A DNA stretch of 64,000 bases from Candidatus Methylobacter favarea (lineage in GTDB: Bacteria; Pseudomonadota; Gammaproteobacteria; Methylococcales; Methylomonadaceae): contig NZ_CADCXN010000001.1 in the NCBI RefSeq assembly GCF_902806695.1, positions 62,001-126,000 on the forward strand, given 5' to 3'. The position numbers and the translations under genes were made by a program. Within the stretch, counting starts at the first letter, position 1, and every line of letters begins with the position of its first letter. The notes under the pieces are model-generated. The model worked only from the letters and a program-made list of their open reading frames with translations. It was not told the origin of the DNA and made no database searches. Below, one piece after another: positions 7,282 through 14,761 of this stretch.

Positions 7282-10200
7282 ATGAAAACGGCAGTTCTTA
7301 ATATTCTCACGCATCAACTTACTCATATTTTAAGAGACACACTACCCAAGATTTCCACATCGTGGTGGACATCCTTAGTCATTGAAAAACTGACCTTTCA
7401 ACAACAATCTTTTGCCAGACAACATAGTCCAGATGCACTCGAACAGCTTGATCTGGCCGCGTTGCTTCGCGTGGCAGACCAGAATTGGTATAAGCTTTCC
7501 CAGCAACGCAATCTCGATAAAACTGTACGGAACTGGCTTAAAGAAGCACAAACTATCCGTAACCGCTGGGCACACGCACCGGCCGGCGATTTGCCGGATG
7601 AAGTTTACTACCGCGATCTGGACACCATCGAAAGACTGTTGCAAGTCTTCGCTGCCAGCGCTGAGGTATTAAACAAAATCAGTGGAGAAAAACAAAATCT
7701 GCTACTCAAGCTCGCAGCAAACAAAGCATCGACACTAGCATCCACAACAGAAAATGCGGTAACCAACTTATTCAAATCTGGTGATATGGTCAGGCTGAAA
7801 GCCAAGCCGCAGACCAGCGGCGCCGTTATTGCCCATTTGCCAGGCGTACCGGAAGATCGCTACCAGGTTTTTCACGATGGTACAACACCCTACTATTACG
7901 CCTCGCAAATAGAACCGATACCGCCCGTTTCAACACATTCTGAAGTTGCTTTGCCTGATTTGCACGCCGCCTTGTCCGCATTGCAACTGCGCCATCCATC
8001 TATCCGCCACTTGTATTCGCTGTTCGCCTCGCGCATCCAGTTTGTGCCTTACCAGTTTCGTCCGGTGCTAAAACTGATACAGGCAGACCGGCCACGGCTG
8101 TTAATTGCCGATGAAGTCGGTGTCGGTAAAACCATTGAAGCGGGACTGATTTTGAAAGAACTGCAAGCCCGCCGGGAAATCAAATCGGTGCTGGTAATTT
8201 GCCCCAAGCCGCTGATCGCCGAGCGCAAATGGCTGGAAGAAATGAAGCGTTTTGATGAGCGCTTCGAGCATCTGGACGGCAAGTCGCTACGCTACTGCAT
8301 TAATGAAACTCATTTTGACGGAATCTGGCCGCAAAAACACGCTCGCGTCATTGTGCCTTATTCGCTACTTGACGAAAGCCTGCTCATGGGCAAACACGAC
8401 GGACGCAAAAAGCAGCATGGCCTGCTTGATCTTGACCCGCCGCCCGCTTTCGATCTGGTCATCGTCGATGAAGCCCACCACATCCGCAACACCGACACCT
8501 GGGCGTATCGTAATGTCCGCCATTTTTGCGACAATGCCGAAGCCGTGGTATTGCTGTCGGCAACGCCCATCCAAATGAGAGATAATGATCTTTACACCTT
8601 GTTGCACCTGATTCGTCCTGACGTGCTGACCAGCCGCCGGGATTTTGAACACATGGCCGAACCCAATCCGCACCTGAATGACGCCATCGAAGCGGCACGA
8701 AGTCTGCAAACGGACTGGCAGGACAAGGTACGCACTCACATCGATAGCGCTTTGGCAACTACCTGGGGCCGAGGCGTTCTGGCCGCTGGTCCAGGTCTGC
8801 AATCAGCCTATGATCTGCTGGATGCCGACCACAACGATCCTGCACAACGTCTGGCGCTAATCCGGCAACTGGAAGAACTCTACACGTTTGCGTCACTGAT
8901 TAACCGTACCCGCCGGCGCGACATCGGCAACTTTACCACGCGCAAACCGGAAACGGTCACTGTCGAATTTACCCCAGAGCAGGCTGATTTACACCAAAAC
9001 CTGATTAACCTGATGGCCCGCATCTTGGCTTTTCGTCACGGCGACCAGAATCTCAGATTCATGTTGTCAACCGTCAGGCAGCAAGTCTCCAGTTGCGTAT
9101 TCGGGCTGGCACCACGCTTGAAAGACATGCTCCAACAGCATTTGTCGCAACTGGAATTAAGCGAGCTGGACTACGAAAACAGCCCGGACGACATTCAGGC
9201 GATACTGGCTGAATTCCGCGCCGATGTGGAGGCCTTGATTCGGCAAGCCCAGCAACTGACCGGCCACGATCCCAAACTGGAAGCCTTTCTCAAAGTCATA
9301 CGCGACAAACAACAATTACCCAACAATAAACTGCTCGCTTTTAGCAGCTTTCGCCATACCATCCGCTACTTGGAAGAGCAACTCAGCCAGGAACCGGTGC
9401 GCTTCGGCATTATACACGGCGGTGTTGCCGATGACGAACGCCGCGCAATACGCAACCGCTTCAGCATGGAAAAAGCTCACCCGAACGCTCTGGATGTGTT
9501 GCTAAGTTCCGAAGTCGGTTGTGAAGGTCTCGATTACCAGTTCTGCGACGGCATGATCAACTATGACCTGCCCTGGAACCCAATGCGCGTCGAACAACGC
9601 ATAGGCCGTATCGACCGCTACGGACAACTTAGCCCAACCGTTGTCATCTACAACCTAATCACACCTGGCACCGTCGATGCTGAAATCTACGAGCGCTGCC
9701 TGCTCCGTATCGGTATTTTCCGCCAGGCATTAGGCAGTAGTGAAGAAATACTGGGAAAACTGACCCAGGAAATTCACGCCATTGCCGAAAACTTTGATCT
9801 CACCCCAGACGAACAAGCCGCCCGGCTGCAACAGATCGCCGACAACGACATCCGCCTGATACAGGAACAAGCCAGGCTGGAAGAACAGCAGGCGCAACTG
9901 TTCGGACTCATGCCAGGCCAACATACCGACGAAATGATTAAACAGGCTGCCAGCTTCTGGTTATCGCCTGCCATGCTGGTCAACCTGATCAGCCGTTATC
10001 TGCAAACTCTGGGCGTAACCAATCTGCCCGCTTCGCTGGGACAAAAACCCCTCACCACGTTGCAACTTGGCCAGGACATCCGCAGCAAACTGCTGGCAGA
10101 CTATCAAAAACTCGATGCCAGCGGTGAAACTGCTCAAATCTGGTCACGCTGGCTGACAGGCAATGAGCCGAATTTACCGCTGACCTTTGACGCTTCCACC

Positions 10201-10713
10201 GCCGCCGAACGCCGTGATCTGCTTTTCATCACACCCACCCATCCGTTGACGCGGCAAGCCGCTCAGTCGCTTGAACCGCGCATGCCGCTACACTGCGACC
10301 TGAGCATAACGATAGCCGACTTACCCGCAGGACGTTATCCTTTCGCCATTTACCGCTGGCGAAAACTGGGCTTGAGAGAAGACTTCACCTTTCAGCCGAT
10401 AAGCCAACATCCCGAGCTCACCGAACGCATGCTGGAATTACTGGAAATCGCTCAACCAATCAAAAACACCGTTGCGCCGATCAGCGCCGATGAAAAAACC
10501 GCGCTGGAACAGGCGCACTACCCGCACTGGTCAAACAGCCGCGCCGCGCACATCGAGCAAGTGACGCAAACCACACAAGCGCGGCTGGCTTCTCTTAACA
10601 CCAGCCACGCCGCCCGCCTGGCTTTATTGGAAGAGCAACGCGACATGAATCCGGACGAGAAAATCCAGCGCATGAAAAACTCGCAGATTGCCTCAGCAAG
10701 CCGCGATTACTAG
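7282..10713 (+). CDS. HEPN (Swt1-like) domain - SNF2-family helicase
   Basis: A 1143-aa protein. The N-terminal ~130 residues look like a Swt1-type HEPN domain with an R-x4-H element at residues 93-98 (RNRWAH), a motif that in many HEPN proteins is the RNase site. A SNF2/superfamily 2 helicase follows: Walker A DEVGVGKTIEAG from 277, DEAHHIRN at 396, motif III SATPIQM, and in the second lobe SSEVGCEGLDY (about 742) and QRIGRIDRYGQ (about 772). About 300 C-terminal residues are unassigned. The frame continues after the TAG at 10711 with plausible protein until a TGA overlapping the next gene, so the annotated end may be a recent nonsense mutation. With the GHKL ATPase downstream it forms a likely operon; a role in anti-phage defence is inference. 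Confidence 0.85.
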   Translation: MKTAVLNILTHQLTHILRDTLPKISTSWWTSLVIEKLTFQQQSFARQHSPDALEQLDLAALLRVADQNWYKLSQQRNLDKTVRNWLKEAQTIRNRWAHAPAGDLPDEVYYRDLDTIERLLQVFAASAEVLNKISGEKQNLLLKLAANKASTLASTTENAVTNLFKSGDMVRLKAKPQTSGAVIAHLPGVPEDRYQVFHDGTTPYYYASQIEPIPPVSTHSEVALPDLHAALSALQLRHPSIRHLYSLFASRIQFVPYQFRPVLKLIQADRPRLLIADEVGVGKTIEAGLILKELQARREIKSVLVICPKPLIAERKWLEEMKRFDERFEHLDGKSLRYCINETHFDGIWPQKHARVIVPYSLLDESLLMGKHDGRKKQHGLLDLDPPPAFDLVIVDEAHHIRNTDTWAYRNVRHFCDNAEAVVLLSATPIQMRDNDLYTLLHLIRPDVLTSRRDFEHMAEPNPHLNDAIEAARSLQTDWQDKVRTHIDSALATTWGRGVLAAGPGLQSAYDLLDADHNDPAQRLALIRQLEELYTFASLINRTRRRDIGNFTTRKPETVTVEFTPEQADLHQNLINLMARILAFRHGDQNLRFMLSTVRQQVSSCVFGLAPRLKDMLQQHLSQLELSELDYENSPDDIQAILAEFRADVEALIRQAQQLTGHDPKLEAFLKVIRDKQQLPNNKLLAFSSFRHTIRYLEEQLSQEPVRFGIIHGGVADDERRAIRNRFSMEKAHPNALDVLLSSEVGCEGLDYQFCDGMINYDLPWNPMRVEQRIGRIDRYGQLSPTVVIYNLITPGTVDAEIYERCLLRIGIFRQALGSSEEILGKLTQEIHAIAENFDLTPDEQAARLQQIADNDIRLIQEQARLEEQQAQLFGLMPGQHTDEMIKQAASFWLSPAMLVNLISRYLQTLGVTNLPASLGQKPLTTLQLGQDIRSKLLADYQKLDASGETAQIWSRWLTGNEPNLPLTFDASTAAERRDLLFITPTHPLTRQAAQSLEPRMPLHCDLSITIADLPAGRYPFAIYRWRKLGLREDFTFQPISQHPELTERMLELLEIAQPIKNTVAPISADEKTALEQAHYPHWSNSRAAHIEQVTQTTQARLASLNTSHAARLALLEEQRDMNPDEKIQRMKNSQIASASRDY

Positions 10714-10821
10714 CATCGTGCGGAAGAATTGCAAAAAGCACCGGAACAGGCTGATGTAATTGCCGAGGCGGTGGCGTTTGGGGTTTTGGTTGTGACAAAA
10801 GGAGAAGAAAATGACAAGTGA
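10711..10821 (+). other. Amber stop and in-frame coding continuation of the helicase
   Basis: The helicase frame stops at TAG (10711-10713) yet the next 35 codons read as normal protein (HRAEELQKAPEQADVIAEAV, then FGVLVVTKGEE) to a TGA at 10819-10821. That TGA lies 11 bases into the ATPase gene, giving the overlapping stop-start typical of a translationally coupled pair. A single C-to-T change of CAG to TAG is the simplest explanation; readthrough is the alternative. Confidence 0.7.
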
Positions 10822-13800
10822 TTACCACGCAATTTCTGTTTATAACGAAGAGCAGCTTGGTAAAGATCGCGCATCTCGCAAATCCCAGGTGGCAATGTAT
10901 ACCGATCCGGTTCATTTTATATTCGAACTGTTGCAAAACGCCGATGATGCTTGTGCTACTAAAATCAGTTTTACAGTTACGCCAGACCAGCTAATCATTG
11001 AGCACAACGGCAAACCATTTACAGAAAGCAACGTTAAAGCCATTAGCTATTTTGAAAAGAGCGATAAAACCGAAAATGGCGAGGAAATAACAAAAATCGG
11101 TCATTTTGGCTTGGGCTTTAAATCAGTGTTTGCGTATACTGCTTCACCTCATGTGTATTCCGGTCAGGAAAGCTTCAAGATAACTCAGCTTTACAGTGTG
11201 GAAACTGTGCCTTATCCAACTGGTCTTAAAGAAGGTCAAACGCGTTTTGTATTACCATTCGATCACCTTTTTGAAAAACCTAATTATATTGAAAACCGTA
11301 AGCTTAAATCATCAGAGATTGCTTACCAAGATATAGCAGGAAAGCTTAGGAAACTGGGGGCCGATACGCTTTTATTCACCAAGTATCTTCAAGAAATCGA
11401 ATGGGCAACCCAAGATGACACTAGACATTATCTACGTGACTCCATTTCGATAAATGAGTGGATGCGAGAAGTTTGTATTAATGACGGCGTGTCAGACCAA
11501 CGGTGCTACTTCGTCTTTGACCGTCCTATTTATTGGCCTGACGATAATGAAATTGAAAAACAGCATCGTCCGGTTCAAATAGCCTTTGGACTCGACAAAC
11601 CCCGGAAAGATGGCGGAGTCATTAGAAAAATTAACAACGCACAACTGTTCGTATTTTTCCCAACAGCAAAGGAAACACATGTTGGCTTTATTTTGCAAGG
11701 TCCATTTCGTACTAACCCGCCACGCGAAAACGTTTTTCCTGACGATGAATTCAATCAACACCTTGTTAACCAAACCGCTGAATTATTAACCGAAAGCCTA
11801 CATCAGCTTAAAGAATTAGACTTGCTCAACTTGGATACCCTTTCTGTTCTTCCTCTTGACAAAGAGAAATTCAAGGAGGGTATGTTTTTTGAACCACTAT
11901 ATTTGCAAGTCTGTAAGAATTTACAAACATCACAGTTACTTCCTAAGTATCGAGGAGGATTTACTTCTACCAATGAATCAAGGCTGGTAAGAGGCGCAAA
12001 ACTGGCCGAAGTATTTGATGCTGAGCAACTAGGTATGCTTTTTGGCAGAGAGAAAATGGAATGGTTGGATACCTCCCTGACCATAAATAACTACCCTGAT
12101 TTACATGGGTTTTTAACTGAGCTTGTTGATGGTATTGAAGTAAGTCCTGATACTTTAGCTCCGAAGCTAACCACTGATTTTTTTAGCAAGCAATCCTCTG
12201 ACTGGCTGATTAAGTTCATCCAATACGCTGAAAAAAGCACCGATAAAATTAAGCAATGCCGGTTTATTCGCCTTGAATCTGGCGAGCAGGTTCCTTTACG
12301 TCAAGATGATGGAAATCCAACCGCATGGTTTGCGCCTGAAAACAGTACAGGGCTGGATTTAATAAAGGACTTTCCACTGGTTCATCACAAGCTGTCTGAA
12401 AACGAAGGAGTCAGAAAGTTTTTGGAAAAAGAAGAGATTCATGAAATTAAGTCGGTGGATATAGTCGAGCAGTGCATCTTACCTAAATATCAAGATACGC
12501 CATTGCATGAAGGCACGCCATTTAGCGAATACGAAAAGACCTATCGAGCTGATTTGTACCAGATAGGTAAAGCTTACGCGGATGCAGATGATGAAATAAA
12601 AGAAGGCCTCAACAAGAGCCTGGACGATATTGAATGGCTAGCCTGTATTCATGCCAACGGCAATGAACCGGATAAAGTGTTCTGGAAAACGCCCGAATCA
12701 GCATATTTATACGCCAAGCCTACTGAAAAACTTGGGTTTACAGTGCCGGAAGATAAAACTGCCTTTTTTTTACATCCGGTAGTCAGTGAAGCACTGGCCG
12801 AATTCAAATCCATTAATGATTATCTAAACGAGTTCATTCAACCGATTGCCCCGCTAACCATTGTTAAAGACTTTATTCTACCGAACTATAAAATACCTTC
12901 GAAATTTGACGAATTCAGCTACCGCAAGGATTTACTGTGGATTTGCAAGGCTTTTAGTGGTGACGAATCGGTAAAAGAGCAATTGAAGCAAAGCCTCAAC
13001 TCATCATATCCTCACACAACATGGCTGGCTTGTGTTCATGCCAGCGGCAAAGAGCCGCTAAGTATTACTTGGAGAAAACCAAATGCCGATGATTTATTCG
13101 AAAAGCCTATCGATGAACAAACATTTCGCGTTCCCGAAAACATGAATGGCTATTTTTTGCATCCGTCGGTTGTCGATGAATTCAGCAAAAACGAATCTGC
13201 TCGAATGTACTTGGAAAAATGCGTCAATGAAATGGATGCAATAGTCATTGTCGAAAAATTCATTCTGCCAAAATACACCAATCCAGACACAACAGTGGAT
13301 TTTGATGAAGACCTCTACCGTGCTGATTTGCAGTGGATTGGCAAGGCTTATAATAGCAATAAGAAAAATTTGATTGCTGACAAACTAAAAAATATAGCAT
13401 GGCTGGCCTGTGTTCATGCCAGTGGTAATTACCCTGATTGTGTTATCTGGGAAAAATCGGATGCAACGGGGTTATTTAAATCAACAGAAACTCATTGTGA
13501 GTGGTTTTCAGGATTAGAAGATGTCGATGTTTATTTTCTACATCGGATTGTGAAAAAAGAGCTAAATGGTATTGCCGATGACTTAATTAGTTCAATCGGC
13601 AAGGGAGAACTTGTAATAAAACAAACACCCAATTATCAACGCTATGTTGTTATTAGCAACCAACACGGATGTCACAAACGCGGACTTGATGGTTTTGACT
13701 CTAATTGGGAAATTACGGGAATTAAACAAATGCTAACAAAGCCACGGCCAGAGCAAAGTAAGATTCTGTGGAATCTCTTGCTAATTAATAGCAAATGTAT

Positions 13801-14761
13801 TCGAGGATTCACTGAGAGTTCCAATCGTTCTAATTGGTCAAACATTAAAAAAAAAGAAGAGCTTTCAAAAATAGGAAACCAGTTATCTACTTCTAAATGG
13901 CTTCCAGACAAAGCAGGCATCTGGCACAAGCCCAGCGAATTGCTTTTGACCGATTTGCCGGATGAGTTCGACACAGAATCGCTCTCTGCAAAAAAAGTAG
14001 CTGATAAGCTGGGGATGAAGAAGCCGGAAGTTCAACAGGCTATTAATGTTATTGCTGGCGATGACCCAAGTAAATTAAGCAGGCTTGAACGTTTTTTATC
14101 TGCTTCTGAAGCAGAACAGGAAAAAATGCTCAAAACAATTCCTCAAGAAATCCCACCGCAACCAGCACCATCTTTTAAGGAAGGCGTGGGCAATTTATTT
14201 CGACCACAACGCGGCAGCAGTTCGACAAGCACCACAGATAAACCAACTTATCCACTCAGCAATCCAGAACGCTATCAAAACAAGATCCATCAAGAGATAG
14301 ATGAAAAATTGGCATTACAACAAACCACTCCGCAAACCATCCGTTTTTCTTTAGTACGCCAATCCTCATCGAATCAAAAAGCGCGTGATTTTCTCTATGA
14401 AGAATACCAAGGTAAATGTCAGATTACCGGTAATACATTCCCTAAAGCTTCAGCGAATGCTAACGGCGAGGCGGAAAATTATTTTGAGGCATGTTCGCTA
14501 CTTTCATACACTAACGCAGATTACTTAAACGATGTCGGGAATATGTTATGCGTCAGCGCTGATACGATGGCAAAACTCAAAAACGCCAGTTTTGAATGGC
14601 TGGATGATTTGGAAGCAATTATTGAGAGTTTTAAAAACAGACAACCAGCAGAAGTTGAAAACGTAAAAGCAAAAATTAAATTAGCGGGTGAAGAATGCGT
14701 AATGACCTGGAGCGAACGCCATTTCGCACATCTAGTGGCTTTATGGGACAAAGCATCATAA
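10811..14761 (+). CDS. Sacsin-like GHKL ATPase with tandem repeats and a degenerate HNH-like tail
   Basis: A 1316-aa protein with a good ribosome site (AAAAGGAG). The N-terminus is a GHKL/Hsp90-type ATPase of the sacsin/NO VEIN kind: N-box ELLQNADDA from residue 39, IEHNGKPF at about 63 (His where most have Asp), and the G2 box GHFGLGFKSVF from 97. Three tandem repeats of about 130 residues begin at 551, 684 and 813, each with IV-x2-FILPKY, YR-x-DL-x-WIGKAY, WLACVHASG and YFLHP elements. The C-terminus (from about 1180) resembles an HNH fold (GKCQITG ... YFEAC ... LNDVGNMLCV) but lacks the histidines, so is probably not a nuclease. Coupled to the HEPN-SNF2 gene upstream. Confidence 0.85.
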   Translation: MTSDYHAISVYNEEQLGKDRASRKSQVAMYTDPVHFIFELLQNADDACATKISFTVTPDQLIIEHNGKPFTESNVKAISYFEKSDKTENGEEITKIGHFGLGFKSVFAYTASPHVYSGQESFKITQLYSVETVPYPTGLKEGQTRFVLPFDHLFEKPNYIENRKLKSSEIAYQDIAGKLRKLGADTLLFTKYLQEIEWATQDDTRHYLRDSISINEWMREVCINDGVSDQRCYFVFDRPIYWPDDNEIEKQHRPVQIAFGLDKPRKDGGVIRKINNAQLFVFFPTAKETHVGFILQGPFRTNPPRENVFPDDEFNQHLVNQTAELLTESLHQLKELDLLNLDTLSVLPLDKEKFKEGMFFEPLYLQVCKNLQTSQLLPKYRGGFTSTNESRLVRGAKLAEVFDAEQLGMLFGREKMEWLDTSLTINNYPDLHGFLTELVDGIEVSPDTLAPKLTTDFFSKQSSDWLIKFIQYAEKSTDKIKQCRFIRLESGEQVPLRQDDGNPTAWFAPENSTGLDLIKDFPLVHHKLSENEGVRKFLEKEEIHEIKSVDIVEQCILPKYQDTPLHEGTPFSEYEKTYRADLYQIGKAYADADDEIKEGLNKSLDDIEWLACIHANGNEPDKVFWKTPESAYLYAKPTEKLGFTVPEDKTAFFLHPVVSEALAEFKSINDYLNEFIQPIAPLTIVKDFILPNYKIPSKFDEFSYRKDLLWICKAFSGDESVKEQLKQSLNSSYPHTTWLACVHASGKEPLSITWRKPNADDLFEKPIDEQTFRVPENMNGYFLHPSVVDEFSKNESARMYLEKCVNEMDAIVIVEKFILPKYTNPDTTVDFDEDLYRADLQWIGKAYNSNKKNLIADKLKNIAWLACVHASGNYPDCVIWEKSDATGLFKSTETHCEWFSGLEDVDVYFLHRIVKKELNGIADDLISSIGKGELVIKQTPNYQRYVVISNQHGCHKRGLDGFDSNWEITGIKQMLTKPRPEQSKILWNLLLINSKCIRGFTESSNRSNWSNIKKKEELSKIGNQLSTSKWLPDKAGIWHKPSELLLTDLPDEFDTESLSAKKVADKLGMKKPEVQQAINVIAGDDPSKLSRLERFLSASEAEQEKMLKTIPQEIPPQPAPSFKEGVGNLFRPQRGSSSTSTTDKPTYPLSNPERYQNKIHQEIDEKLALQQTTPQTIRFSLVRQSSSNQKARDFLYEEYQGKCQITGNTFPKASANANGEAENYFEACSLLSYTNADYLNDVGNMLCVSADTMAKLKNASFEWLDDLEAIIESFKNRQPAEVENVKAKIKLAGEECVMTWSERHFAHLVALWDKAS

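Follow-up and report, generated by a model that had tools for sequence, protein, structure and literature searches.

A near-invariant pair of HEPN-SNF2 and sacsin-type GHKL genes in Candidatus Methylobacter favarea, probably an undescribed antiviral defence system

The 64,000-nucleotide window analysed here (Candidatus Methylobacter favarea, contig NZ_CADCXN010000001.1, positions 62,001 to 126,000 of the forward strand; genome of 4.07 Mb in 134 contigs) carries two very large adjacent genes at positions 7282 to 14761, which encode a SNF2 protein with an N-terminal HEPN domain and a sacsin/Hsp90-type GHKL ATPase. The two genes form a unit with near-invariant pairing and are probably an undescribed antiviral defence system. 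With a probability of roughly 0.5, we favour the reading that the pair is a two-gene system against mobile elements, most likely phages, in which the GHKL protein would sense or license, the motor would engage DNA or transcription complexes, and HEPN would cut RNA. Across relatives we observe that the genes are paired, carry these domains and keep their HEPN and ATPase motifs intact, with a neighbourhood of defence genes and a sporadic spread. This context supports defence, and we infer the defensive role, the RNA cleavage and the division of labour from the sequences.

Relatives were collected by scanning two peptide patterns over one genome per species (84,980 species), and the best 80 of 382 were kept. 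Pairing was counted in the 76 loci with at least 150 nucleotides (nt) downstream, all found via the SNF2 gene. In 73 of the 76, no more than 100 nt separate the SNF2 stop from the GHKL start, or the two genes overlap, 37 of them by exactly 4 nt. Of 50 plasmid records that match at 1e-20, 4 cover 80% or more of the query with a single place, and all 4 contain the pair. A first-pass annotation of this DNA, made by a model from the letters alone, had suggested adjacency elsewhere as a check on its proposal of a two-gene system, and these counts bear the adjacency out. The SNF2 and GHKL distance matrices correlate (r 0.59 over 67 loci; at most 0.24 in 2000 permutations). Six of 101 genomes matched in a sample of the window's family; the pair occurs in the window genome (G000), G059, G031 and G022, and G050 holds the HEPN part only. 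No constant third gene accompanies the pair, and a third core gene was rejected, as the commonest neighbour family reaches only 7 of 86 loci (flanks being short at many of them).

The first gene encodes the motor and the HEPN domain, with the following features.

7282..10713, + strand: SNF2 protein with N-terminal HEPN domain (open reading frame, 1143 amino acids; ended early by TAG)
7294..7644, + strand: HEPN_Swt1 domain, residues 5-121 (Pfam PF18731, 55.8 bits against a cut-off of 27.5)
7558..7575, + strand: R93-x4-H98 motif, codons 93-98 (from the translation; R and H kept in 70/72 fused relatives)
7780..7926, + strand: putative small beta domain, residues 167-215 (strands of the model; sits where RapA and BrxHII have a Tudor/SH3-like domain, a presumed assignment)
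7999..9771, + strand: SNF2/RapA-type motor core, residues 240-830 (Pfam; top fold match RapA)
8107..8133, + strand: Walker A region ADEVGVGKT, residues 276-284 (K283 and T284 in 90/90 aligned sequences)
8467..8478, + strand: DEAH box, residues 396-399 (90/90 aligned sequences)
9772..10710, + strand: RapA-like C-terminal region, residues 831-1143 (VIA alignment to RapA, model residues 217-1143, root-mean-square deviation (rmsd) 7.6)

The fusion of a HEPN domain carrying R-x4-H at residues 93-98 to a SNF2 translocase, as read in the first pass, is confirmed. The HEPN domain is of the Swt1-like kind, with a profile score above cut-off and an R-x4-6-H motif formed by R93 and H98. The motor is supported by the Pfam families SNF2-rel_dom (81.7 bits, cut-off 24.9) and Helicase_C (65.6, cut-off 23.5), which together reach residue 781, and its Walker and DEAH residues are invariant in the 90 aligned sequences. 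An AlphaFold model of the protein (pLDDT 80.0, from 41 sequences) has RapA as its top match in the PDB (Foldseek E 6.5e-30; VIA Z 21.7, rmsd 7.6). The VIA rows span mainly residues 240-858; the alignment to RapA covers 766 residues over 217-1143, against at most 457 for other SNF2 chains among the matches listed, so that the protein follows the RapA layout of domains past the ATPase core as well. Among solved structures, the best relative by sequence is again RapA (6.2e-49). The nearest named relatives of the gene are held by Methylococcaceae.

The second gene begins within the in-frame tail remainder that follows the stop of the first, and encodes the GHKL protein.

10811..14761, + strand: sacsin/Hsp90-type GHKL ATPase (open reading frame, 1316 amino acids; Pfam, NCBIfam)
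10892..11170, + strand: sacsin/GHKL ATP-binding domain, residues 28-120 (PF25794, 52.1 bits, cut-off 32.8; NF047352, 88.9, cut-off 50)
10925..10948, + strand: N-box ELLQNADD, residues 39-46 (E, N and D in 45/45 aligned sequences)
12446..12838, + strand: internal repeat 1, about residues 546-676 (pairwise alignment against shuffles)
12845..13225, + strand: internal repeat 2, about residues 679-805 (pairwise alignment against shuffles)
13226..13564, + strand: internal repeat 3, about residues 806-918 (pairwise alignment against shuffles)
14396..14596, + strand: C-terminal HNH/treble-clef-like domain, about residues 1196-1262 (family profile matches McrA, E 1.4e-5; three of four presumed metal-ligand positions changed here)

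Its identity as a sacsin-type GHKL ATPase with repeats, also claimed in the first pass, follows from the domain profiles above cut-off together with the N-box residues. A fold model was made from the relative at L019 (1071 amino acids, pLDDT 80.5), for which the VIA rows span mainly residues 14-462. The model aligns 173 residues with sacsin SR1 (Z 15.0, rmsd 3.0), in a near tie with Hsp90, topoisomerase VI and GyrB, all at Z 13-15, and the family profile finds sacsin at 2.4e-17. The three repeats stand in tandem in the middle of the protein; their pairwise identities are 46/134, 46/120 and 43/115, with scores of 171-209, whereas 300 shuffles per comparison never exceeded 53. By alignment, the W-[LV]-A-C repeat core occurs 3 times in the window protein, twice in L014, twice in L015 and once in L013, so copy number differs among relatives of one family; a pattern search had given 3, 1, 1 and 1, and the alignment counts are used here. 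A repeat of about 125 amino acids that varies in copy number (window 12446-13564) resembles fast-evolving recognition regions. At the C-terminus, the presumed ligands C, C, C and H/C are present in 44, 41, 42 and 39 of 45 rows; of these four positions, the window protein and L019 each deviate at three and L031 at two. The EVHHV histidines of McrA are catalytic. They face V and E in the profile alignment, where the window protein has EACSL, and an assignment as a McrA-type HNH endonuclease was rejected on the lack of these histidines in the family domain.

The neighbourhoods of the pair in 13 genomes contain restriction genes and further defence genes. We compared flanks with control stretches from the same 13 genomes (13 of 15 prepared flank/control pairs, with L056/L120 and L063/L122 left out for size), taking non-overlapping frames of at least 90 amino acids as genes and PADLOC matches at E<=1e-25. 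The 141 flank proteins match 78 PADLOC families and the 138 control proteins match 26, both being counts of families matched and not of distinct proteins; the enrichment near defence genes suggested as a check in the first pass is thus present. Flank families among the matches listed include type III methylase and restriction subunits, type I restriction, DRT2, HNH, PDC-S60, PDC-S68 and HEC-06. The control stretches hold mostly generic matches: among those listed, mainly sigma-54 regulator models and PD-T4-6, together with mad6, kinase, PglW and MkoA. Nine neighbours chosen for a closer look comprise type III restriction (L034, L095), type I restriction (L056), PDC-S60 (L060), a weak MkoA match (L063), AbiEi and an HKD-SNF2 protein (L154), Vsr (L155), and an L157 protein that has no PADLOC match but is a McrBC component in Pfam. 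The recurring neighbour families are SF1 helicases (7 of 86 loci), HsdR-like proteins (6), type III-type methylases (5) and TM0106-type nucleases (4). The SF1 helicases are large AAA_30/UvrD_C_2, RecD-like proteins (L044 16791-20663, L046 16785-20657, L079 18870-22466 and four others). The TM0106-type RecB-like nuclease-helicase lies directly downstream of the pair on an Ensifer plasmid (L009 15147-18533) and near it in Roseovarius (L063 4327-7779), with further family members in L034 and L089.

The spread of the pair is sporadic and broad. A SNF2 profile at 1e-60 matches 9 of 398 sampled Pseudomonadota genomes, four of them through distant SNF2 proteins without GHKL; the distant relatives of four genomes (L104-L107) show no GHKL match in the flank examined, nor does a second, distant SNF2 gene of G026 within 2.7 kb. 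Five of the 398 genomes carry the family, the window genome included, and G164 and G168 have the pair. The GHKL profile matches 8 of 398, namely the same five, G152 (a short contig with no SNF2 match), G319 and G223, the last two without a SNF2 match within 16 kb of the GHKL gene. A SNF2 tree computed with FastTree mixes many phyla, including two methanogens (archaea), and the label Pseudomonadota requires nine changes on it; such mixing would fit horizontal spread and is no proof of it. Among the IMG/VR contigs we found 16 relatives, five of them close, and L154, L155 and L157 carry the pair. On L156 the GHKL match runs on the other strand, and phage-like genes (portal- and protease-like, judged by eye) follow.

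Several of these loci have unusual arrangements. On G245 contig C408 (L101, L177, L179), a full-length SNF2 gene stands beside a GHKL gene split into short frames of 325 and about 205 amino acids, the second part reaching the contig end. In G260 (L103 570-2495), the HEPN, SNF2 N-terminal and GHKL C-terminal profiles all hit one frame of 641 amino acids, which looks like the product of a deletion that fused the two genes. In G050 (L018 9656-10516), a protein of 286 amino acids has the same HEPN family with a different C-terminus, with no SNF2 or GHKL match in the 19-kb stretch. In G223 (L182 5185-11193), the sacsin-type GHKL gene lies 3 nt after a UvrD-PD-(D/E)XK helicase-nuclease gene in the same direction, and in G319 (L181 5027-11562) a UvrD-PD-(D/E)XK gene is divergent from the GHKL gene at 335 nt. 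The divergent orientation in L181 leaves L182 as the only operon-like case.

GHKL proteins close on ATP, and SNF2 motors travel on double-stranded DNA. A metal-independent endoRNase site is described for most HEPN domains in the available part of PMC3710099. From this family knowledge we derive a working model in which a GHKL sensor or clamp would license a RapA-like motor and HEPN would cut RNA. The GHKL ATPase, with its variable middle region and a C-terminal HNH-derived domain that lacks the McrA histidines, would close as an ATP-driven clamp and probably recognises the trigger or licenses its partner. The RapA-type translocase would move on DNA, possibly at transcription complexes, carrying the predicted HEPN RNase. 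On a trigger, both proteins would act jointly, and HEPN would cut either the transcripts of the phage or, in a suicide response, the RNA of the host.

A number of observations weigh against this model. The pairing has exceptions: a 512-nt gap separates the genes in L021, a 2213-nt gap containing an AAA_15/AAA_21 ATPase gene separates them in L098, L084 has no GHKL gene within the 477 nt available downstream, and G026 has a broken SNF2 gene with no GHKL match in the 1.7 kb left on the contig. The viral contig L158 holds a short SNF2 frame and no GHKL match. A defence neighbourhood is no proof of defence, and at home the pair lies among housekeeping genes, as claimed in the first pass: of the six closest window genes tested, one side has TrpD, TrpC and Lgt, and the other an NtrC-type regulator, a DnaJ/CbpA-type and an Hsp20-type gene. 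RapA itself serves host transcription. The window copy may moreover be weakened or impaired by a stop in the conserved tail of its motor, an amber codon rightly noted before.

10711..10713, + strand: TAG stop within the conserved C-terminal tail (downstream same frame and tail comparison; "1 TAG" inside the profile match)
10714..10818, + strand: in-frame remainder of the tail, 35 codons past the TAG (resembles the tail of relatives; overlaps the start of gene 2)

Since the TAG precedes a conserved tail in the same frame, the window motor is about 35 residues short. Relatives carry intact copies of the gene, and 84 of 89 extend at least 20 residues beyond the equivalent point; of the five shorter ones, contig ends truncate L062, L072 and L073, and the SNF2 frames of L016 and L033 are short. 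Loci with both genes at full length include those of Sphingopyxis bauzanensis (L095), Massilia phyllostachyos (L067) and Thalassococcus profundi (L044). Tail conservation was judged by this length test, the tail-motif pattern having matched 20 of 89 relatives.

Further counter-evidence concerns HEPN itself, which is strongly kept where present but optional. The domain is fused in 70 of 80 loci, and 68 of these 70 retain both R93 and H98, the fused copies in L092 and L094 having lost R/H. Ten of the 80 loci have no HEPN match; L027 and L085 begin at a contig end, which leaves eight, and HEPN is also absent in L009-L012 and L015. The true share may be lower still, because the best-scoring 80 favour HEPN-bearing proteins. 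The pair must therefore work without HEPN, or with other effectors, in at least these loci, which speak against HEPN as the only effector. Two substitutes were considered and rejected. The gene of about 180 amino acids upstream in Ensifer/Rhizobium is not a split HEPN, as none matched the HEPN profile and the Ensifer gene has no Pfam match at E<=0.1. A nuclease replacing HEPN was not apparent either, as ten neighbours tested in HEPN-less loci are mixed and follow no rule (AAA_15/AAA_21 ATPase, NERD helicase, RtcB, HNH protein, WYL regulator, RecD-like helicase, EF-G-like protein and others). In a Poribacteria genome, the RNA ligase gene rtcB (L088 8394-9935) stands immediately before a HEPN-less pair. 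Of the candidate defence system proposed in the first pass, the adjacency and the defence neighbours thus stand, HEPN is not obligatory, the toxin-antitoxin flank is not confirmed, and the parts prove to be of known kinds.

These HEPN-less loci lend some weight to defence at the level of DNA, a possible although less probable explanation, in which the RapA-like motor and the GHKL clamp would remodel or block invading DNA and HEPN would be a back-up suicide domain in most copies. It leans on likeness to the DISARM and BREX-related helicases, which are thought to act so, and the SNF2 part does match models of DrmD, BrxH, RapA and DpdE. HEPN has also been proposed as a last-resort effector in HEPN-DUF499 systems, according to the portion available of PMC12839542. 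Against this, no DNA nuclease is recognised in the pair, the HNH-like domain lacking the McrA histidines, and HEPN-bearing copies seldom lack the motif (2 of 70).

A cellular stress or RNA-quality system unrelated to phages, composed of a RapA-like RNA polymerase recycler with an RNase and a sacsin-like chaperone, appears unlikely. RapA as the top structural match, aligned over residues 217-1143, would suit it, as would the housekeeping and chaperone genes next to the pair in the window and the description of animal sacsin as a chaperone with a HEPN domain in the accessible part of PMC3710099. The pair nevertheless occurs sporadically, in 5 of 398 Pseudomonadota genomes and dispersed among phyla; it is also found on plasmids and IMG/VR contigs, and often placed beside restriction-modification and Abi genes.

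The remaining question is whether the pair belongs to a system that already has a name. No curated full-length NCBIfam system model scores above its cut-off for either protein. In NCBIfam, the window SNF2 protein reaches 324.9 bits with DrmD (cut-off 610), 185.9 with RapA (576), by which RapA membership was rejected, and 185 with DpdE (500); four relatives (L012, L031, L060, L086) score 294.7-323.3 with DrmD. PADLOC was run protein by protein, and DrmD is its best model for the SNF2 part among the matches listed (385 bits; 25 of 46 listed for the gene 1 product). Likeness to DISARM class 1 lies in the SNF2 part, through its helicase DrmD. DISARM membership was rejected, as the DrmD score is below cut-off and DrmA, DrmB, DrmC and a methylase are absent from the six nearest window genes.

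Other helicases of this kind set the pair apart through its partner gene. From the available text of PMC12839542, BrxHII and BREX-related helicases share the RapA-like order of Tudor, SNF2, degenerate REase-like and C-terminal domains, and type 1 BREX-related systems carry HEPN on a DUF499 ATPase; ARMADA has a RapA-like helicase, in the part available of PMC12458937. The RapA-like helicase is common to BrxHII, Hma and ARMADA, whereas the partner ATPase here is GHKL. The BREX-related type 1/Hma assignment was rejected: neither the pair nor the six neighbours tested include a DUF499 ATPase or N6-methylase, and those six nearest genes also lack a DUF499/BrxC ATPase, a YprA helicase and any methylase. 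E. coli RapA, the best fold match, differs in lacking the N-terminal HEPN and the GHKL partner. Fusions of a Swt1-family HEPN to a SWI2/SNF2 ATPase (WQE_15321, "active") are listed by Anantharaman et al. 2013, as are HEPN-helicase fusions in restriction-modification systems; the portion available of that paper mentions no sacsin/GHKL partner gene (PMC3710099). Animal sacsin combines both kinds of domain in one giant chaperone, whereas the Swt1-type HEPN is here on the SNF2 partner. HEPN-SNF2 fusions are thus already in print, and both the helicase (RapA/BrxHII/DrmD-type) and the GHKL protein (Tiamat-like) are of known kinds. A description of the pair was not found in the literature searched, most subscription papers and later system lists lying outside the search.

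A further named system to weigh is Tiamat, which is a single-gene system. The window GHKL protein matches nine TmtA models in PADLOC, the best at 202 bits over residues 29-563 of 1316. The best TmtA scores are 136-488 bits for four paired relatives and 219 and 247 for the two UvrD-associated GHKL proteins. The highest belongs to L036 (Methanoculleus), at 488 bits over positions 19-1108 of the 1302-position model; PADLOC might therefore call this gene Tiamat, and part of the family may already count as such. The GHKL gene here is paired with SNF2 in 73 of the 76 loci (found via SNF2), unlike single-gene Tiamat, and judging from the sequences the relation appears partial. That the pair is a member or fragment of Tiamat (the GHKL gene), DISARM (the SNF2 gene) or a BREX-related/Hma type is the least likely explanation, the TmtA scores and the DrmD score in PADLOC being outweighed by the NCBIfam cut-offs, the partial TmtA coverage, the near-constant SNF2 pairing and the absence of methylase and DUF499 partners among the six nearest genes.

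Returning to the favoured two-gene model, the UvrD-nuclease partner in L182 would fit, by analogy, the view that a nuclease borne by a motor is the effector. A broader claim, which we regard as doubtful, is that a sacsin/Hsp90-like GHKL clamp would gate a swappable motor-nuclease, either RapA-SNF2 with a HEPN RNase or UvrD with a PD-(D/E)XK DNase, and so define a new class of immune module. On that reading, prokaryotes would have, as a functioning antiviral pair, the sacsin GHKL and HEPN combination that the animal chaperone shows. What stands is a well-defined pair of near-invariant layout, present in methanogenic archaea as well as bacteria from many phyla and not found named in the libraries and literature searched. 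Should the pair serve in defence, a RapA-like motor bearing an RNase domain would gain an Hsp90/sacsin-type ATPase as its partner, and it would become testable in what way chaperone-like GHKL proteins work in immunity, whether transcription is sensed by RapA-like motors, and whether HEPN acts as effector or back-up.

Decayed toxin-antitoxin DNA had been proposed for the flanks and was not confirmed: Pfam gives nothing at E<=0.01 for the three right-flank open reading frames tested, the genome has no second match to either flank, and toxin-antitoxin remnants and repeated DNA were rejected on these grounds. In G001, of the same genus, one contig carries the lgt block and another the regulator block, so that no clean empty site is shown. 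The sole MZB/DUF1998 match of the window genome is on another contig than the pair (C12 4151-4420, L170), in a frame of 1730 amino acids that is perhaps another defence helicase.

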